Shown here one piece after another: positions 19,874 to 41,084 of a DNA stretch of 64,000 nucleotides. A program made the position numbers and the translations under genes. Each line of letters starts with the position of its first letter. Position 1 is the first letter of the stretch. The stretch covers positions 1 to 64,000 of IMG/VR virus record IMGVR_UViG_3300028558_000028; one strand, given 5' to 3'. Source of the DNA: a virus. The notes under the pieces are model-generated. The model was not told where the DNA came from and ran no database searches. It saw nothing but the letters and a program-made list of their open reading frames with translations.

Positions 19874-22332
19874 CAGAAGTATCCTTGGAATGTCAGAAAA
19901 GAGTTTGCCCCGATCGCGGATGATCCGCTGATAGTAGCTGTGTTTGTTCCTGTATTTGATTCCAGTGCGCTATAAAAATGCTGTCCTATATTGACGCTAG
20001 AGAATGAACCAGTACCGGTTCCGACTGTAATGCCCGTCGGTGTTTGTCCGGTAGCCCCACTATATGTAGTAGTGCTATCAAGACCTATTCCGGGTAATAT
20101 CGATCCAGACGTGGCAACTGTTGCAATCTCATTGAACACGCTTGAAAAACTGTCTTCAGCTAGGCCGCTTACGAAAGTGACCCGCCAGGTAGTCGACCCG
20201 TGAGCTGCGCGAATCGTCGTCAAGGCATAGGTCCAGCTAGCTGTGGTGTCTATAACTTGGGTGAAAACCGGCCTTCGGTTATATTCGTTCCACAGGTTGA
20301 AGATACCGGCCCCGCCGTTAGCCGCAGCACTTCCGTATTGCCACGTGACTGTCGCGCCACCAGGGTCGGTTGCGAAAGTGCCGACATAGGTGCCGGCTCC
20401 TGCTCCGGGCCCGTTCGTGATAGCACTGGTATTGGTGAGGATACCGTTGACACGGGTAAGACCTGTGCCGGTCCCCGCTCGCGTCGCACAACTGGTCCAT
20501 GCCGGCCCCCGGGTCAGCGTCGGCGTTCCGGAATTGCTCCATTCATAGAGATCGTAACAACTGCTCGCGACTGCAGCGGCGGGCCCAGCGTTACCAGTTG
20601 ACGAATTTGCGAGAACGTTCGATGTCTCAGCCGCCGGCGTGGCGACGAAGTTGGTCCCGTTCCATAGCGGGATCATGTTTCCAAGGTATGGCGTCTCGTA
20701 GATTGTCCCTGCCGCCGTAACCGTCGTCGAGAGAACGGGGACGCCGCTCGTCAGCGTCAGGCGCTGCTGCGGCATCTCGACCACGCCGCCCGAGATCGCC
20801 GGGGTCACGATCGTAGCAGAAGTGTTGAACACGGCGAGCCCGGTGCCGGTCTCGTCGCTTAGTACACCAGCGAGTTGGGCGCTCGTCGTCGCCGCAAAGA
20901 AACCCAGGTTCTTGGCTGACGTCGCTACGGCGGATGCCAGGAACCCCGCATCCTGAATGACGGTCCCGCTCGTACCGCTGAAAGAGGCGACATCCCCGCT
21001 AACCGATGAGACCGGGCCTGTGACGTTGCCGCCGCCGGCAGGGGAGGCCCACGTGCCGTCTCCGCGCCAGAACGTCGAGCCCGAAGCGCCGGAGCCGCTG
21101 CCGAGGTTGGCGACCGGTAGGTTGCCCGTCAGGGTCGATGTACCGAGCGCGACGGTGAAGCCGGATCCGGTGGCGCCGCTCGTCAGCGTGCCGACGCCTG
21201 TCAGAGACGATCCGGTCACGCCAGAGGCGAGGGTCGAACCTGAGAGCGTGCCGGCTGGCGCGATGACGACATTGCCGGCGGCTGCGATAAGCTGGCCCTG
21301 CTGGTTGACCGTGAAGCTGGGAATGGACGTCGAGGAGCCATAGCTGGCGGGCGTGACTGCAGTGCTGACCAGGACAGAGCTCGGGATGGTCCCTGCGCCG
21401 GAAACAGTGCCCGTGAGCCCAAGATTCGCGATTGACGGACCGCTGGCCAGGACCGCGCTGCCGGTCCCGGTCGGTGTCTTCTCGCCCAGCACGCCAGCAT
21501 TATTGTAGAGGATATTACCGGAACTACCGGAACCAATCGTCGTCGTGCCAACCGTTATGCTGCCAGCTGTCGCGGAGATCGTGCACGACCCGCTCAGCGC
21601 ACAGGATGTGCTGTTGATCGTGATGGTGGCCGCGCCGCCGTCGCTGATGACCTTGCCTGTGGAGTCCGCGTAGGATGCCCAATGCCCGGACGTAGCCGAC
21701 GCAGGCCCGAGAACGGCCGAGAGGCTGTTCATCGTCGGGCGCCAGGTCGTGTTCGGCGCGTCGTAGATCCATCTCGTACTGCGGCCGTGGCCGATTACAC
21801 CCGATCCGCTGATGGTCGTGCCAGCTCCGGCCGACACCGTGTCGGACGCCGAAGCATCGACGTTGTTCAGTTGGATGGTCGTGCCGTTTGCCATTCCCAG
21901 CGCGGTGGCCGCGGGGAAGGTGTCGGTCATCGCCGAGCCGGAATTCGATCGGCGGGTCTCCTGGAAGAGATCGGCCGTCGCGAAGGTGTAGCTCGCGCCG
22001 GTGACGGTCTGAACCGGCAGCAGCGCCTCGAGCGTGCCCGTTCCAGGGTCGTTGACCGACGTCCCGACGTTCTTTGTCGCCGCGGTTCCGAGCCCGAGAA
22101 CCGTGATCACCTGGCTCGGTGACAGCGCCATCACATTGGCCGGCAGGTTGGTGTTGTTGCCGAGAATCGTCAGCGGCGGGACGAACAGCACATCCTGCTT
22201 CGACGCCCACTCCGCATTCCACTGGCCCGCCGTCGGCACGTAGCCGTATGGCCAGTTGGGCGAGGACTGCGCGCAGGCATGAAGGCTCGTCCCAGCGAGC
22301 AAGAGCGCGCCGGCGATTATCCGTCTAAACAT
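19873..22332 (-). CDS. Tail fibre protein, with an N-terminal signal-peptide-like segment
   Basis: 819 aa. After a hydrophobic start (RIIAGALLLAGTSLHACA) comes WPYGYVPTAGQWNAEWASKQ, a common phage fibre N-terminal region. Long Gly/Ser/Thr/Ala-rich beta-repetitive shaft sequence follows (GTGTLEALLPVQTVTGASYT, SGSTFWRGDGTWASPAGGGN). The C-terminal 250 residues are more complex and are probably the receptor-binding tip. Receptor is unknown. The predicted signal peptide is unexpected for a virion protein assembled in the cytoplasm. Confidence 0.8.
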   Translation of the reverse strand: MFRRIIAGALLLAGTSLHACAQSSPNWPYGYVPTAGQWNAEWASKQDVLFVPPLTILGNNTNLPANVMALSPSQVITVLGLGTAATKNVGTSVNDPGTGTLEALLPVQTVTGASYTFATADLFQETRRSNSGSAMTDTFPAATALGMANGTTIQLNNVDASASDTVSAGAGTTISGSGVIGHGRSTRWIYDAPNTTWRPTMNSLSAVLGPASATSGHWASYADSTGKVISDGGAATITINSTSCALSGSCTISATAGSITVGTTTIGSGSSGNILYNNAGVLGEKTPTGTGSAVLASGPSIANLGLTGTVSGAGTIPSSVLVSTAVTPASYGSSTSIPSFTVNQQGQLIAAAGNVVIAPAGTLSGSTLASGVTGSSLTGVGTLTSGATGSGFTVALGTSTLTGNLPVANLGSGSGASGSTFWRGDGTWASPAGGGNVTGPVSSVSGDVASFSGTSGTVIQDAGFLASAVATSAKNLGFFAATTSAQLAGVLSDETGTGLAVFNTSATIVTPAISGGVVEMPQQRLTLTSGVPVLSTTVTAAGTIYETPYLGNMIPLWNGTNFVATPAAETSNVLANSSTGNAGPAAAVASSCYDLYEWSNSGTPTLTRGPAWTSCATRAGTGTGLTRVNGILTNTSAITNGPGAGAGTYVGTFATDPGGATVTWQYGSAAANGGAGIFNLWNEYNRRPVFTQVIDTTASWTYALTTIRAAHGSTTWRVTFVSGLAEDSFSSVFNEIATVATSGSILPGIGLDSTTTYSGATGQTPTGITVGTGTGSFSSVNIGQHFYSALESNTGTNTATISGSSAIGANSFLTFQGYF

Positions 22333-22353
22333 CGTTGGATGTGCCCCTTTTTC

Positions 22354-24224: not shown

Positions 24225-24875
24225 TCAGGGCAGGACGACCGAGGCGGAGACACCGACCGGCTTCGGCAGCACGCCGGAGTTCTGGACGATCGCAAGCTCC
24301 ACGGGCGACAGCGGGAAATCGAACGTGTAGGTCATCGTCATGTCGCCGTCGTCGGTGACGTAGCAATTGCCGCGGCCCGGGAAGAGCGAGAGCAGGATCT
24401 GGTTGATCGCCGGGATCGATCCGTTGGTGATGTTCGCCGCGGCCTTGGCCAGGATCAGCCGGCGATAGGGATCGTCCGCGAGCTGGAAGCTGTCGGTCAG
24501 GGCCTGGCCGGAAAAGAACGAGCCCTGGCCGAACGTATCGGCGCCGGGGACGCCCTGGTCGAAGCCGAACCAGTCGCCGACCGTAATCTGCAGGGTACGC
24601 GACACCCCCACGATGCGACCCCAGACGTCGAGGCCGTAGCCCTGCGCGGTCAGCACGTTCCAGATGTCGTCGAAGAAGGCGTCGAGGTTCTCGGTCTGAA
24701 GGAGGTAGGCCGCGTCGTTGTTGATCAGCGCCGTCAGGATCGGCGAGTTGGCGTACTGCGATATGATGGTCTTGCGGTAATCGAACGGGATGTCGCCGAT
24801 CGGGCTGACCCCGATGACGAACTGCCCGATGCCGTTCGGACCGAGCGGCGGATAGGGCGGGCCCGTATCGGTCAC
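24225..24875 (-). CDS. DUF2612-type tail/baseplate protein
   Basis: 216 aa. Contains DIWNVLTAQGYGLDVWGRIV, DDPYRRLILAKAAANIT and NQILLSLFPGRGNCYV, features of DUF2612 proteins that occupy the gpI-like position after baseplate J in myoviruses. It probably links baseplate wedge to fibre. ATGA overlap with the J gene supports co-translation. Confidence 0.8.
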   Translation of the reverse strand: MTDTGPPYPPLGPNGIGQFVIGVSPIGDIPFDYRKTIISQYANSPILTALINNDAAYLLQTENLDAFFDDIWNVLTAQGYGLDVWGRIVGVSRTLQITVGDWFGFDQGVPGADTFGQGSFFSGQALTDSFQLADDPYRRLILAKAAANITNGSIPAINQILLSLFPGRGNCYVTDDGDMTMTYTFDFPLSPVELAIVQNSGVLPKPVGVSASVVLP

Positions 24876-26293
24876 GACAGCGTGACGGCGATGTTGCCGG
24901 CGGCGAGGGTCGGCACCTCATCGATGTCGACACCGACCTGAAACAGGTTGGCGAGCGCCGACACCATGGCCTCGCTCGACACGGTCTGCGTCTGGTTCAC
25001 CACCCAGCTCGTGCCGCTGCCCGAGACGATCTTGGTGCCGGGAAGGACGTTGCCGGTCAGGTCGAGCACGGACTGGCCGATCGCGATGGTTCCCGTCACC
25101 GAGCTGACGGTAAGCGCCGTGCCGGCAATGGCCCCGGTGAACGTCGCCGATGTGTTGGCGGCCGATCCGATCTCGAGCGAGATGATCTGCGCCCATGCGC
25201 CGAGCGCCGCCACTGGAGCGTAGAACCGGCTGGCATAGAGCGTGCCGCCGATCCGGGCGCGCGGCCCGCCATCCCCGCCGGCGAACGCGCTGAGGATAGC
25301 ATTCTGGATCTGCGTCGTGGCGTCGGCCGGGACCGCCGTGCTGTTGACGAGGTTGACCGCGAACAGGGTCGGCAGGCCGGTCGGGATTTCGAACTTGACC
25401 GTGTAGGACGGATAGGGCGGCGAATAGCCGGGGCTCGTGTCCTGTACCGTGACGGTGGTGTTGCCATTGTAGGCACATCCCGGCGCCTTGCGGGACCAGA
25501 TGGCCTCGGCGATGTCCTGCGCCTCGCCACCGACCACCGCGACATAGACCGAGTTCGCGGCGAGCGACACGCCGCCGATCGTCTGCGGCGAGTCCTGATC
25601 GTTCTCCGTGACGTAGGCGTCGATCACGTTCTGGACCGACAGGACGGCGCCGAGGATCGCGCCGAGCGCCCCGTTCGAGTTCAGCGCGACCGAGGCGGCG
25701 CGGCGCGCCTCGAACGCGGCTCGGGTCTCCGTGTTGTTGCCGAGCACGCCCGACACGACGCTGACCGTGTCCCAACCCGGGATCGCCTGGTAGATCGTGA
25801 TCTCATCGGCACCGGGCACCGCGGTCGGCCCGGGAATGACATTGGCGAACGGCAGCGTGATCGTGCCGCCGCCCGGGATCGTGCCGGCCTCGGTGCACGC
25901 GTAGAGGTTGCCCGACCCGTCCTGGATCAGCGCGTTGACCGGAATGACGACGCCGACCGCCCCGACGCAGGTCACCTGCAGGACGGTCGATTGCGACGGG
26001 TTCCGCTCGAGGAAATAGATGCGGGCGATCGCGTCCTGCATGCGGCCGGAGGCGTAGGCCGGATCGACCTGGTTGGTGATCGCGACGAACGTGTCGTTCA
26101 CGTTGCCGATGATCGCGGCCATGCTCGATGCGAGCTGGCCCTGCGGCGTATCGAGCGCCGGGTTGAGCGTGAAGCCGGCGGCGGCGAACGCCGCCACGAT
26201 GTCGGCGATGACGCCGGCGAGGATGGCCGCCTCCGACGGGGCAATGAAGCCCGTCGGGCCGAACGTGGGCCCGGGAACGTTCGTCGTTGGCAT
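24872..26293 (-). CDS. Baseplate J-like wedge protein
   Basis: 473 aa with the baseplate J pattern: GFTLNPALDTPQGQLASSMA, RIYFLERNPSQSTVLQVTC, PVNALIQDGSGNLYACTEAG, then a domain with TETRAAFEARRAASVALNSN. It forms the peripheral baseplate with gp25-like and DUF2612 proteins. Residues about 385-444 are an inserted Gly/Thr-rich module also present in sheath, neck and cement proteins, followed by a C-terminal 30-residue strand region. Confidence 0.88.
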   Translation of the reverse strand: MPTTNVPGPTFGPTGFIAPSEAAILAGVIADIVAAFAAAGFTLNPALDTPQGQLASSMAAIIGNVNDTFVAITNQVDPAYASGRMQDAIARIYFLERNPSQSTVLQVTCVGAVGVVIPVNALIQDGSGNLYACTEAGTIPGGGTITLPFANVIPGPTAVPGADEITIYQAIPGWDTVSVVSGVLGNNTETRAAFEARRAASVALNSNGALGAILGAVLSVQNVIDAYVTENDQDSPQTIGGVSLAANSVYVAVVGGEAQDIAEAIWSRKAPGCAYNGNTTVTVQDTSPGYSPPYPSYTVKFEIPTGLPTLFAVNLVNSTAVPADATTQIQNAILSAFAGGDGGPRARIGGTLYASRFYAPVAALGAWAQIISLEIGSAANTSATFTGAIAGTALTVSSVTGTIAIGQSVLDLTGNVLPGTKIVSGSGTSWVVNQTQTVSSEAMVSALANLFQVGVDIDEVPTLAAGNIAVTLS

Positions 26294-32896: not shown

Positions 32897-34873
32897 TTAT
32901 TGGAGTGCGGTGCTGGAAAGCGTGATCGCCTGGATCGACTCGCCGTCGACGTACCAGAACTTGATCTGCGGCGAGGCGCGGCCCTGGCGGACGATCGGCG
33001 CGGCGTCCAGGATCTGCAGATACCAGCCGCGCGTGCTCAGCGTTCCCGCGATGTTGGCGCCGGCCGCGGCGTTGACCTCGGCGATCTGCGCCGCCGACAG
33101 CGTGACACCGGCCCGGAATGCGCCGAAGGCCAGGCCCGCGTTGATCGGATCGGCCAACGCCGCCTCGATCAGGGCGTAACCGTCGTCGTTGTAGGGGATC
33201 GAGCCGGACTGCGTGACCAGCTCCATCAGCGCGAGCTGGAAGGCGTTGTTCAGCCAAATCTGATTGACGTAGCTGTCGATCCACTCGAACGGGCCGGAGA
33301 TCGTGCCGCGGCTGAAGAACACGAAGCCCTGGTTCGCCGTGGCATAGGCGCCGTAGAAATTGTAGGAGTTGCCGAAGTCGCCCGGCGTTTGCGGATTGCC
33401 GGCGAGGTTGATCGCCACCTGCGCATTCGTCACGCCGGCGAGCAGCCCGGCCTGCGACCGGAAGGCCATCGTGGTCCTGCCGTTCGGCTCCTCGAAGTCG
33501 ATCGAGGCGATGGCGCCGAGCAGGAACGATGCGACGTTGAGGTCCGACGGCTCGTAGATCAGGATCGTGCCGGAATAGCTGGCCTGCTCGATCAGGTAGC
33601 CCAGGCAGGACGTGGCCGGCACCTGCGTGGTCGGCGACGCGTCTGTGTCCCAACAGACGTAGGCGTAGCGGTCGTTCTGCGCGCTGGTCCACGCGGCGAA
33701 CGCCAGCTTCTGGCTGTTCCCCGAGCCGCCGTCCGGATCGAACGCCGTCATGAACGTCGCCCAGTTCTGCGTGACCTGGATCAGGCTGTTCATGAAGGCG
33801 CTGGGCGTCGTGGCGGCCGCACCCTGCGACAGGACGGCGCCGGTCGCCGAGGTGAGCAACAGCGGCGCAGCCAGCGTGCCGGTCGCAAAGGCCGCGGTCG
33901 ACGGCGTCCCGGTGATCCCCGACGTGATGACGAAGGCGCCGGACACGCTGTCGAAGGTGACGAGCGGCGCCGTTGCGACGCCAGTCATCGACTCGCTGGC
34001 GACCGACTGCTGCGCGCCGCTGATCCGATATGTGCCGACGCCGCCGGTCGTGCCGCCGAGCTGCGCCGTGATCACCGGCGAGCCGGTCACGCCCGAGCCG
34101 ACGACGGTCTGCCCGACCGCGATGGCGTGGTCGGTGTCGACCGTCACATCGAGCACGGTCGAGGCCGTCGCCAGGCTCGCGCTGCTCGACGTCGTCGCGT
34201 TGCTCGTGACGTAGACGCCGGCACCGCCCGTCGTGCCGCTGGTCTGCGAGACGATCGTGGTGTTGGCCGGCACACCGGAGCCCGAGACCGTATCGCCGAC
34301 CGAAATCAGCCCCGTGACCGATGTGGTGGTCAGGTTCGTGCCGGAGCCGGTGCCGGTGAATGTCGCGCCGAGCGAGGCCGTGAACGTCGCCTCGGTCGGA
34401 TCCGTGAAGGCCGCCTGGATGCCGGCCGCCGCGGCCGAGAAGCTGTTGTAGGACGAGAGGCTGATCGAGGAGATGACGTGCGTGTAGCCGTCGATCACGA
34501 CGGTCAGCGAGCCGGACAGGGCCTGGAGCTGCGCCAGCGTGAGGTTCGAGACGTTTCCGCCGCGGAGATAGGCCGCGACCGCCGTCGCCGGATATTGCGC
34601 GAAAAGCAGCGCGCCGGGCTTCTGCGTCGAGTTGTCGTAGCCGCCGAAGTAGCCCGAGCCGAGGCCGGTGCCGCCGCCGGCGATCTGCGCCTCATGCGAG
34701 CCGGCCCCGAAGAAGCTCGCCACGGCCGCCCCGGAGGCGAACGACTGCACCGTCCCGATCGGTACCCGCGCGCTCTCGGTCAGCACGAGGCCGTTGAGCG
34801 CGAACGCGTCGCCGCCGGCGCTGAGCACGCCCGGATTGACGGCGACCAGTTGCGAGGCCGGGATGGTGCTCAT
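32897..34873 (-). CDS. Contractile tail sheath protein (DUF3383 type) with two inserted modules
   Basis: 658 aa, longer than usual for the family (about 500). The N-terminal domain has VNPGVLSAGGDAFALNGLVL; the C-terminal domain has FFSRGTISGPFEWIDSYVNQ and ISGPFEW, typical of DUF3383 sheaths. Residues about 163-297 are two Gly/Thr-rich modules of the shared type inserted in a surface region. The sheath contracts to drive the tube through the envelope. Confidence 0.88.
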   Translation of the reverse strand: MSTIPASQLVAVNPGVLSAGGDAFALNGLVLTESARVPIGTVQSFASGAAVASFFGAGSHEAQIAGGGTGLGSGYFGGYDNSTQKPGALLFAQYPATAVAAYLRGGNVSNLTLAQLQALSGSLTVVIDGYTHVISSISLSSYNSFSAAAAGIQAAFTDPTEATFTASLGATFTGTGSGTNLTTTSVTGLISVGDTVSGSGVPANTTIVSQTSGTTGGAGVYVTSNATTSSSASLATASTVLDVTVDTDHAIAVGQTVVGSGVTGSPVITAQLGGTTGGVGTYRISGAQQSVASESMTGVATAPLVTFDSVSGAFVITSGITGTPSTAAFATGTLAAPLLLTSATGAVLSQGAAATTPSAFMNSLIQVTQNWATFMTAFDPDGGSGNSQKLAFAAWTSAQNDRYAYVCWDTDASPTTQVPATSCLGYLIEQASYSGTILIYEPSDLNVASFLLGAIASIDFEEPNGRTTMAFRSQAGLLAGVTNAQVAINLAGNPQTPGDFGNSYNFYGAYATANQGFVFFSRGTISGPFEWIDSYVNQIWLNNAFQLALMELVTQSGSIPYNDDGYALIEAALADPINAGLAFGAFRAGVTLSAAQIAEVNAAAGANIAGTLSTRGWYLQILDAAPIVRQGRASPQIKFWYVDGESIQAITLSSTALQ

Positions 34874-34883
34874 CGATTGGTCC

Positions 34884-35621
34884 TCATGGGGTGTAGGTCG
34901 CCTCGACCGAGATCAGATCGACCGTCAGGCGGTCGGCGAACTGCTGGGGCACGCCGACGACTTGGTTGGCCTGCAGCACCGCGTCGACCACATAGCGGGT
35001 CTCGTATTGCTGCTCGGCGTTGATGAACGGCATCTGCTTGGGATCGCCCGCGTAGAGCGGCGTCACGTCCGTGCCGGTCACGGCGAAGAATTGGGTCGCA
35101 TATTCGTCGCGGAACAGCGTCGCGATGGTCTGCGCCATGTCCGCCGCGTCCTGGACATTGGCGCTGTGCACGTCGAGCTGGACCGTCACCTTGGTCGGCT
35201 GAGCGATGATCCCGGCGCCGCAAGCGAGCGTCTCGGTGCCGACGGTCTGAGACGGCATGACCGTGTAGGTCCCGATACCGCCCGGTGCACCGCCGGTCTG
35301 CGCGGTGATCGTGGTGCCGGCCGTCACGCCTGACCCGAACAGCACGTTGCCGACCACGACGGCCCCGATCTGCACGGCCGTGACGGTCATCACGGTCCCG
35401 GCGATCGACCCGGTGAAAGCCCCGTCGGCATAGGTGTCGATGTTGGTCTCGAGCCGCTCGCGCAGGATCGTCGTCATCACGACGAAGTCGGTGCCCTGCG
35501 GCTCCGGTACGCGGTTGTCCTGGCCCTCGATCACCTCGACGCCGGTCGGCAGGATCTGGATCAGGAAGGCCCGTAGCGCTGTCTGGATGCCCGACTGGGT
35601 CGGGACCGGCGCGAATGGCAT
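34884..35621 (-). CDS. Neck/tail terminator protein with inserted module
   Basis: 245 aa. [40 protein letters not shown] and [20 protein letters not shown] resemble neck terminator proteins located upstream of DUF3383 sheaths. Residues about 69-132 are one copy of the shared Gly/Thr-rich module, interrupting the conserved fold. It would cap the tail tube and join it to the head. Confidence 0.7.
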
Positions 35622-35950
35622 CAGCGATAATAGAGGATGTTCAGCACCCCGCCCGATACGGCGTTGATGCACTGCATCGCGGAGAGCGTGCCGGAATACT
35701 GGAAGGGCGCGATGCCGACCGGGATCAGGAAGCCCGCGCTCGTGGTCGGCGCCACGCCGTCATCGCGGCAGCGGATCGCCTGCACCTCGGCCGAGAGCAG
35801 CGCCATGGTGGCGCCGGCCGGCGCGGTGAACGCCGTGGCCGAGGTCGGCGCGATCTGCTGGTAGCCGAGCGGCACCCATGTGATGACCGGATCGGCGCGC
35901 GCCGCCGTTGCGAAGAGCAGAGCTACGGCGAGCAGCAAGCGCTTCATCAT
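35621..35950 (-). CDS. Signal-peptide-bearing protein inside the head-tail gene row, 109 aa
   Basis: TGATG overlap at its start. [19 protein letters not shown] is a standard Sec signal peptide with an ARA-D cleavage site. The mature 90 residues are beta-rich with two Cys ([17 protein letters not shown]). Beginning and end are fused tightly to connector genes, yet the product should be exported. Confidence 0.6.
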
Positions 35951-38034: not shown

Positions 38035-38487
38035 TCAGCGCCGCCCGTAGCCCCAGCCGCCCCACGATCCGTTGATGGGCTGGTATTGCGGCGTGATCTT
38101 CGGAGCGTAGCGGCCAAGCCGGAACGGCAGCGCGAGCTGCCACCACATGGCGCCGTATTGCGTCTGCGAGAACCACTTGTCGTTCGGCGTCGTCGGGAAA
38201 TCGGTTCCGACAGAGACCGAACCCTCGCTGGCGTTGCTGATCCGGCCGACTAACGGCGAGAGCGGCTGCGTCGTCGAGCCGAAGAGCAGCTGCGCGACGT
38301 GCGCGACCATCATGTTCAAGAGCTGCGTCTGGATTCCGGCGTCGCACACCGGGCCGCCGCCGTCGTTGCGATTGTACTGCTCCGCCAGGGTCAGGATCGG
38401 GCCGGCGACCTGGTCGCTCGTCAGGTTGCTGAACTGCGGGAACAGCGCTGCCCAGGCCGCATAGTTGAACGTGACCTGGACGCCCAT
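38035..38487 (-). CDS. DUF4054-type head completion protein
   Basis: 150 aa. FNYAAWAALFPQFSNLTSDQ, LNMMVAHVAQLLFG and RISNASEGSVSVGTDF followed by NDKWFSQTQYGAMWW are diagnostic of DUF4054, an adaptor-type protein encoded after the major capsid gene. Confidence 0.85.
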   Translation of the reverse strand: MGVQVTFNYAAWAALFPQFSNLTSDQVAGPILTLAEQYNRNDGGGPVCDAGIQTQLLNMMVAHVAQLLFGSTTQPLSPLVGRISNASEGSVSVGTDFPTTPNDKWFSQTQYGAMWWQLALPFRLGRYAPKITPQYQPINGSWGGWGYGRR

Positions 38488-38493
38488 GGCGGT

Positions 38494-38986: not shown

Positions 38987-40081
38987 TCAGATCCCGATCA
39001 TGGAGGCGATGGTAGACGTCATGCGCAGGATGCAGCCCCAGGTCCCGCCGCTGACCTTCTGCTTGTAGCTCGACATCTGCGGGATGAGCTTGTGGGCCCG
39101 CATCTTCTCGTTGAAGCCGCAGAACCCGGTGTCCTGCCCGTCGAGCTGCTTGGCGATGAGCTGCATGAAATTGCCGCCGGAAATGCCCTGCGGGTTCGAT
39201 GCGCTGAGCGCGCCGTACTGCACGGCGCTCTCGACCTTCAGGTTGGGGAAGTTCTTCTTCAGCAGGTCGCTGACGTTGACGTTGAACGAGTTCGTCGTGG
39301 TCAGCGCCGCTTCCGACTGCGGGCTCATCGCCAGCACCATTGGCGTCTCGCGATCGACCAGGCCAGCGGTCTGGCTGACGAGGGCCGCGAACAGGTTCTC
39401 GATGTCGGCGTAAATCTCGTTCGCCGATGCCGCGATCTGCCCCGACGGATTGTACCAACCGGTCCCGCCCCACGCCTTCGTTGCCGGCGTCAGCGACGCG
39501 TTGAGATGAGGATCATTGAGCAGCCCGTAGTTCTGGAGGCCCGCGACGCCGAAGAAATACGTCAGGTTCGAGAACTTGTTCAGCATCAGGGCGGCGGAAT
39601 AGTCCAGCTCCGACACCCAGTTGATGCGGGCCAGTCCGGCGCGCTCCAGCTCGCGCTCGCCGTACTGCTTGATGACCTGAAACAGATAGGCCTGGCGCTG
39701 CGGCCAGTTGGTATTCGACGTGACCGTGCCGTTCTCGGCGTAGTCGCCGTAGCTCGACACCTCGCCCGCGGCCTCGGTGATCGGCAGCATGATCGTGTCG
39801 TCGAGCCAAGTACCGCGCCGCTCCTCGCCCATAATGACCGCGGCCTTGTTCGGCGCGAACAGCGCCTTGAAGACCTTCGGGTCGATCATGGTGGTGAGGA
39901 TCGCCGGGACCGCCGAGTTCGGATCGGTCGCCGAGAGCTGCGGCTGGGCATCCATGGCCAGCGCGAAGTCGTAGCGGAATTCGTCGGGAACGTAGGACCG
40001 GACGGCGTCCATGGTGACGCCGCGCTGCGCCAGCATCCCGCGGTGCTCGGCCCAGAGCTGTGCTGCTTCTTGACGGTTCAT
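38987..40081 (-). CDS. Major capsid protein (DUF2184, HK97 fold type)
   Basis: 364 aa from MNRQEAAQLWAEHRG. VPAILTTMIDPKVFKALFAP, TIMLPITEAAGEVSSYGDYA and LMLNKFSNLTYFFGVAGLQN match DUF2184 capsid proteins. It builds the icosahedral shell. Ribosome site AGGAG lies just upstream. Confidence 0.88.
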   Translation of the reverse strand: MNRQEAAQLWAEHRGMLAQRGVTMDAVRSYVPDEFRYDFALAMDAQPQLSATDPNSAVPAILTTMIDPKVFKALFAPNKAAVIMGEERRGTWLDDTIMLPITEAAGEVSSYGDYAENGTVTSNTNWPQRQAYLFQVIKQYGERELERAGLARINWVSELDYSAALMLNKFSNLTYFFGVAGLQNYGLLNDPHLNASLTPATKAWGGTGWYNPSGQIAASANEIYADIENLFAALVSQTAGLVDRETPMVLAMSPQSEAALTTTNSFNVNVSDLLKKNFPNLKVESAVQYGALSASNPQGISGGNFMQLIAKQLDGQDTGFCGFNEKMRAHKLIPQMSSYKQKVSGGTWGCILRMTSTIASMIGI

Positions 40082-40115
40082 AGTCGATTTCTCCTGAGCT
40101 TTGGGCCGATGAGGC

Positions 40116-41084
40116 TTAGCCGACGCCCGGCACGTTGGTGATCTTGACGAGCTCGCCGGCAAGGCCCGACGAGCGGGCGTACCAGGAGGTTTCGACGTTG
40201 GTGGCGCCGGTCAGGTTGCCCTGGCTGCCGCTGCTCGACGTCTGCGACGGGGTGACGGCCGCAGTGCTGCCCGTGCCGCCCGAGCCGGTGATGAACTGCG
40301 TGATCGTTGTCCCGGCGGTGACGCCCGCCGTCGCGCCGGTCAGCGTGTCGCCGACGCCGAAGGCACCTGCGCTGACCGTGGTCAGCGTCAGCAGGCCATA
40401 GGCCGCGGTGATCGTCGTCGCCGCGACGATCTGCTCCGGGATGCTGACGGAGTAGGTGCCGTCGCCGCCCGTGGTGCCGGAGAGTTGGCCGGTGATCTGC
40501 GTGCCGGTCGCGACGTTGGTGCCGGACAGAACGCTCCCGGGGTAGATCGTGCCGGTGACGGCTCCGGTGACCGTGAGGACGTCGCCGGAGATCGAGCCGG
40601 TGAACGAGGCGGTCTGCGCCGAGATGGACCAGGACGTCGCGGTCGCGCCGGACGGCGACCCGGCAGCGGCGAACGTCGCCTTGCCGTCGGCGAAGTTGGC
40701 GTAGCACTTCTGCCCGGGAAGCGCCTCGGTCGCGCCGTCGTTCCGGACCCAGAACCCGCCCGCCGAGAACGGCGTCGCCATGAATCCCGCGGGGATCGTC
40801 ATGCCGGCTGCCGTCAGGTAGGTGGTGATCAGGCCCTGCTGCGCCCGGCCGACGAAGCCGATGACGGGCCCGGAGCCGAAGTTGTTGTAGGCAACCGGCG
40901 CGCCGTCGGCATCGGTCGTCGAATAGGAGGCCCACGCGAACCGGCCAATGACGAGGCCGTTCGGGCCGGCCACGCCGCCGCCCGGGCCGGCATCGACCGA
41001 GTAGCGCGGGTTTGCGTCGCAGAAATCGCCAGCCACTCCGGGTGCCGGCTGGGTCGTCACAGTTTGCTGAATCCCGCCGGTCAT
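40116..41084 (-). CDS. Head structural cement/decoration protein with two inserted modules
   Basis: 322 aa. TTQPAPGVAGDFCDANPRYS, GPNGLVIGRFAWASY and VIGFVGRAQQGLITTY are typical of Gp24-like cement proteins found before DUF2184 capsids. After residue 160 come two copies of the shared Gly/Thr-rich module (about 161-226 and 229-285), then the ancestral C-terminus (ETSWYARSSGLAGELVKITN). The modules would protrude from the capsid surface. Confidence 0.78.
   Translation of the reverse strand: MTGGIQQTVTTQPAPGVAGDFCDANPRYSVDAGPGGGVAGPNGLVIGRFAWASYSTTDADGAPVAYNNFGSGPVIGFVGRAQQGLITTYLTAAGMTIPAGFMATPFSAGGFWVRNDGATEALPGQKCYANFADGKATFAAAGSPSGATATSWSISAQTASFTGSISGDVLTVTGAVTGTIYPGSVLSGTNVATGTQITGQLSGTTGGDGTYSVSIPEQIVAATTITAAYGLLTLTTVSAGAFGVGDTLTGATAGVTAGTTITQFITGSGGTGSTAAVTPSQTSSSGSQGNLTGATNVETSWYARSSGLAGELVKITNVPGVG

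Follow-up and report, generated by a model that had tools for sequence, protein, structure and literature searches.

A Gly/Thr-rich beta module inserted six times into four unrelated virion proteins of a contractile-tailed phage

A Gly/Thr-rich module of 62-68 residues is present six times in the 64,000-base window (the whole stretch of DNA that was analysed, out of a virus record of 64,571 bases; GC 65%), with two copies in the capsid cement protein, two in the tail sheath protein, one in the neck terminator and one in the baseplate J protein. We favour, with moderate confidence, the interpretation that these copies represent a small beta domain, mobile and able to fold on its own, that acts as a displayed, neutral structural or weak-contact element rather than as a specific receptor- or glycan-binding site. 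The host genes lie within a minus-strand structural cassette of the contractile-tail type, which codes for a DUF2213 protein, the cement protein, the major head protein, the terminator, a DUF3383 sheath, a tape measure, a Dit-like protein and baseplate J. The relevant features of the window are as follows.

40116-41084, minus strand: capsid cement (minor capsid) protein of the XM1 gp53 type, 322 aa, with two tandem modules near the C-terminus
40404-40610, minus strand: cement module copy 1 (HMM; AlphaFold2 pLDDT mostly >90)
40224-40409, minus strand: cement module copy 2 (HMM; AlphaFold2 secondary structure)
38990-40162, minus strand: major head protein ORF (phrog_264)
34884-35672, minus strand: neck/tail terminator protein (PF23961, 76.5 bits; NF047498), with one module
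35220-35423, minus strand: terminator module (HMM i-E 8.6e-25 with a profile built without window sequences; AlphaFold2 mean pLDDT 94.8)
32897-34873, minus strand: tail sheath protein of the DUF3383 type, 658 aa (PF11863, 394.9 bits), with two tandem modules
34169-34366, minus strand: sheath module copy 1 (HMM)
33983-34177, minus strand: sheath module copy 2 (HMM)
24872-26293, minus strand: Baseplate J-like wedge protein, 473 aa (PF04865, 42.9 bits; phrog_6), with one module near the C-terminus
24959-25147, minus strand: baseplate J module (HMM and alignment; most of the GTTGG turn is absent)

The core of the cement protein was recognised by Pfam as PF23982 (80.6 bits against a cut-off of 27, residues 7-156), and the protein was assigned to phrog_2122, minor head protein; on the minus strand its gene is followed directly by that for the major head protein (phrog_264), as in XM1 gp53-type systems. 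In the terminator ORF, the first likely ATG lies near 35621. An earlier note on this DNA had named the four host proteins as cement, sheath, neck and baseplate J, and the matches to PF23982, DUF3383, PF23961 (neck terminator) and PF04865 (Baseplate_J) bear out these identities; its coordinates for the cement feature, 40230-41084, were essentially right but missed the last ~114 bases of the coding sequence. Elsewhere in the window, a head protein of phrog_302 (38038-38493, minus strand) is without the module, and eight ORFs of the phrog_302 family in related contigs have one. An 825-residue Gly/Thr/Ser-rich protein encoded near the tail genes (19876-22353, minus strand), without a PHROG match, was ruled out as a further copy, being similar in composition but giving no HMM match.

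Pairwise identity among the six copies is 30-47% at the level of protein and 47-61% at the level of DNA. When an HMM built from 94 modules, all taken from other contigs, was run against the 891 ORFs of the window, only four ORFs were matched, with six matches at i-E values from 7.8e-10 to 8.6e-25; these are exactly the six copies that had been reported, including the tandem pair of ~60-residue modules in the cement protein. Profiles built separately for each host protein and copy, and compared with one another as had been proposed, likewise united the modules as one family (98.9-99.6% probability in 15 of 15 pairs). The segments are rich in Gly, Thr, Ser and Val, as would be expected were their likeness a chance product of low-complexity sequence without homology. 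Against such a reading, reversed and locally shuffled decoys (14,928 ORFs) yielded zero module HMM matches, the independent profile recovered all six copies, a single fold is confidently predicted, and a pattern of positions is conserved (G20, G25, I/V39, G45, G48, G51 and Y53). The decoy and independent-profile tests refute chance similarity, to which we give next to no credence, and the copies are indeed better matched than random Gly/Thr-rich sequence.

No family covering the module was found in Pfam or NCBIfam, in agreement with the absence of a named Pfam family claimed at the outset. The only PHROGs that contain it are 21413 (unknown function) and 38233 (tail fiber protein), both unnamed; here, as in the window proteins, the module is present as a segment, but these are whole-protein clusters in which it is not described as a domain. 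A literature search, with most subscription papers outside its reach, found no paper describing the module.

Insert-free homologues of the host proteins were identified in isolates, namely Pseudomonas phage Amjad_SA, Aeromonas phage 4_D05 and Acinetobacter phage C62, and the flanking core aligns through. In the sheath, the modules sit between ...IQAAFT and VTFDSVSGAFVITSG, with the core aligned on both sides against these three phages, at a site equivalent to approximately residues 157-162 of E217 gp31; insert-free isolate sheath homologues are ~490 aa long, as against 658 aa in the window. The cement core (~7-156) belongs with the XM1 gp53-type minor capsid proteins (PF23982; the TW1 and XM1 decoration proteins), whose isolate members are near 160 residues (XM1 gp53 itself has 160 residues; PMC10457771), and to which the window protein adds two modules before the last hairpin, NVETSWYARSSGLAGELVKIT. 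This position was judged by eye, as the automatic alignment places the last residues of the cement protein loosely, and an alignment of 40 cement sequences concurs. Together, the HMM, the profiles and the insert-free relatives support the proposal that one domain has been inserted repeatedly into several unrelated virion proteins. Among relatives, insertion is mainly at a single site in the sheath, at two sites in the terminator and at about five in baseplate J. One of these last is seen in a baseplate J protein from the same family (L152:742-2205), whose module lies in another turn (residues 253-319), while the C-terminal site occupied in the window protein is empty.

Structural models of the module were generated using AlphaFold2 on the terminator copy together with 95 diverse modules. 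The resulting model (pTM 0.81) is all beta, with strands at 4-22, 30-32, 41-48 and 54-72. In a model of the cement protein (mean pLDDT 85), both modules are predicted confidently (mostly >90), and a long strand (residues 218-239) is common to the two; the tandem modules are thus predicted to chain because this one strand passes from module 1 into module 2. The earlier note had looked for a single beta fold with a conserved surface: the confident all-beta fold stands, but the module alignment revealed no conserved aromatic or acidic/charged surface site and no conserved Trp.

A Foldseek search of the PDB with the module placed chain 1 of 8eci, from the capsid of Arthrobacter phage Bridgette, at the top with a probability of 1.00, although the match is modest (TM 0.67 by query length, 28% identity, E 0.013). 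The same chain was recovered in a structure search with the cement model, which also matched capsid chains of Pam3, FCWL1, XM1 and T1. At the level of sequence, no match of the module to solved structures was convincing, and the Bridgette chain was absent at E <= 10 when the profile was compared with them. Bridgette possesses dimeric capsid cement proteins around the penton (PMC13033339), and from its length and this description 8eci chain 1 is probably that cement protein. It is the closest solved fold to the module, but is a stand-alone protein of 124 residues, whereas the window module is an internal insert. Below it came weak matches to the N-terminal beta-barrels of F1-ATPase; Fab and antibody chains gave TM <0.3 and no Ig family was matched in Pfam or NCBIfam, leaving an Ig-like fold unsupported. 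Among predicted viral structures there were 14 matches with E <0.001 and TM 0.79-0.94, to uncultured phage proteins (labelled as HK97 capsid, Stf tail fibre, pectate lyase, P22 gp10 and tip attachment J) and to one Indivirus collagen-repeat protein. Two giant-virus collagen-repeat proteins of Indivirus ILV1 (A0A1V0SCQ2 and A0A1V0SDM6) contain a stretch that resembles the module in predicted structure (TM 0.85-0.87, 28-34% identity), a likeness that might reflect either exchange of the module between giant viruses and phages or convergent evolution.

In 122 related viral contigs, we counted 379 modules in 262 ORFs of 111 contigs, with one to three per ORF. These ORFs encode sheath (78), cement (62), terminator (50), baseplate J (36) and other proteins (36). 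Among the others are head closure Hc3, a laminin-G protein, tail spikes and a T4-type tail sheath (phrog_165; L047:5093-6943), which is not close to the DUF3383 sheath and contains one module; a virion structural protein of phrog_3645 (L060:1348-2118) likewise has one. A single module is also present in a DUF2793 protein encoded by a bacterial genome (L143). When presence was mapped onto a tree of 93 sheath cores, at least 11 changes were required in the sheath, at least seven in cement, and at least six each in the terminator and baseplate J, together with at least 19 changes of copy number in the sheath, counts in which gain and loss are indistinguishable and in which the other proteins may have trees of their own. 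Co-occurrence among the four proteins was marked in raw counts (Fisher p 0.013 to 5e-8 in five of the six pairs), which suggested joint selection for modules in all four; it was not significant once relatedness was allowed for, and therefore does not demonstrate joint function.

The module is rare in bacterial genomes (3 of 297 in the order of genome G001 and 4 of 398 in its phylum). In five rhizobial genomes, six copies all fall within ~20 kb, in one prophage-like stretch, and related prophages reside in Rhizobium, Mesorhizobium and other Rhizobiales. Scarcity in isolate phages is uncertain, because tblastn of modules against them is nearly blind, probably through its low-complexity filter.

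For 287 of the 379 modules, the nearest outside relative was found in the same protein, compared with 24% expected by chance. Some exchange of modules between different proteins nevertheless exists: copy 1 of the window sheath shares 76-77% identity with a baseplate J module in one related contig (L064) and with a cement module in another (L109). The closest cross-protein pairs were cement copy 1 with sheath copy 1 and cement copy 2 with sheath copy 2; a tandem-pair cassette common to both proteins was considered and set aside, as leaving out the shared strand weakens the effect. A recent burst of copying across the genome was likewise rejected, cross-protein identity being 42% within contigs versus 41% between contig groups. 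The most alike within-contig pair, at 85% identity, lies in two adjoining ORFs (L046:36-2006) with one module each.

The composition of the modules is skewed (G 17%, T 20%, S 10.5%, W 0.07% and almost no C), with charged residues (DEKR) making up 3.5% in modules versus 11% in host cores. The conserved positions (Gly, Thr, Ile/Val and one Tyr) look structural in role. The modules have diverged nearly as far as the host cores, with dN/dS for module versus core of 0.31 versus 0.35 in the sheath, 0.41 versus 0.41 in cement, 0.31 versus 0.26 in the terminator and 0.27 versus 0.15 in baseplate J, and often <0.25 for modules in close pairs. These values (about 0.27-0.41) and the core-like divergence show no hypervariable or positively selected module and give no sign of receptor-type diversification; for the same reasons the fold is taken to be maintained without diversifying.

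By analogy with solved systems, the modules are probably displayed outward on head, neck, sheath and baseplate, because XM1 gp53 forms trimers on the capsid surface through its C-terminal part (PMC10457771), an inserted domain is present in the NTD of the XM1 sheath (PMC10457771), and the additional domains of sheath proteins are as a rule positioned away from the tube (PMC9230969). None of the solved relatives of the cement, sheath, terminator and baseplate J proteins has the module in these proteins. The terminator is expected to form a hexameric ring with few copies per virion, which would fit poorly with both an avidity coat and a cement role.

The earlier note had gone further, reading the modules as an adhesin-like or glycan-binding coat. 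On such a reading they would bind surface polysaccharide, mucus or biofilm matrix weakly, with many copies providing avidity, and full occupancy of sheath and cement would probably put hundreds of them on each virion. Their promiscuous insertion is like that of phage Ig-like domains, which have been proposed as weak carbohydrate binders (quoted in PMC9230969), and some ORFs of other contigs combine the module with laminin-G/ConA-like and tail-spike domains. Yet no carbohydrate-binding (CBM or lectin) family in Pfam or NCBIfam matched the module, which lacks a conserved aromatic or charged surface site, is all but devoid of Trp and poor in charge, evolves under purifying selection without hypervariability, and occurs in the low-copy terminator as well. 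Although glycan binding by the module is possible, the claim of a coat was left unsupported by these results and by the lack of receptor-type diversification, and we consider a multivalent coat unlikely.

Frequent gain or loss, the use of several insertion sites, the viability of insert-free phages, and the fact that joint presence across proteins is not demonstrable after correction for kinship would all suit a nearly neutral, selfish domain, spread by recombination because virion proteins can accommodate it in their loops and hairpin turns. The low dN/dS, especially in close pairs, and an identity near that of the core over deep divergence instead argue that the fold is maintained; part of this purifying selection could reflect selection against misfolding rather than for function. 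On balance we judge a purely selfish domain improbable.

The interpretation that we prefer, a displayed structural or weak-contact element, is favoured over a receptor or adhesin because of the near-zero charge, the absence of a conserved site and the slow, core-like evolution, and also because the nearest solved fold, albeit a modest match, is a capsid chain. Alone or as two tandem copies, the module would insert into virion proteins at loops and probable hairpin turns, where its two long end strands would let it extend a host hairpin (a geometry that we infer) and chain head to tail. Its likely work would be that of a neutral structural or weak-contact element, which may stabilise contacts between neighbours or make low-specificity contact with extracellular material. 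Of the particular functions, each less likely than not, stabilisation or packing of the virion is the one we tentatively put first, with weak generic or glycan adhesion only a little behind; a nearly neutral hitch-hiker is rather improbable, and shielding or spacing more improbable still. It is also conceivable, as a tentative extension, that the module forms a phage-specific plug-in family that moves between virion genes and between unrelated phages, coordinately changing the outer surface of the whole particle via loops and hairpin turns, with carriers that would include two contractile sheath types, cement, neck, baseplate, tail fibres, an annotated HK97 capsid protein and possibly giant-virus fibre proteins.

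The module merits a family entry of its own, as it makes the genes for sheath, cement and terminator longer and harder to recognise, and the sites at which it is tolerated mark where virion proteins accept foreign domains. Since insert-free and multi-copy relatives are available, together with prophage candidates in Rhizobium and Mesorhizobium genomes, the role of such add-on domains becomes directly testable by deletion.

Why phage particles bear accessory beta domains has long been a puzzle: such domains are common and optional, and their role is mostly undemonstrated. The Ig-like domains of tailed phages are promiscuous accessory domains of this kind, found on capsid, tail tube, sheath and decoration proteins. 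The module resembles them in being one small beta domain, optional, present in several unrelated virion proteins and patchy among relatives, and the likeness in idea drawn by the earlier note holds for promiscuous insertion, with the module in four unrelated virion proteins here and in more among relatives. It differs from them in its fold, which is non-Ig by Foldseek, and in being internal, inserted in frame within loops and probable hairpin turns. Promiscuous accessory virion domains are thus a known kind, of which this unnamed, non-Ig module, carried by four or more virion proteins of a single phage, is a new example.
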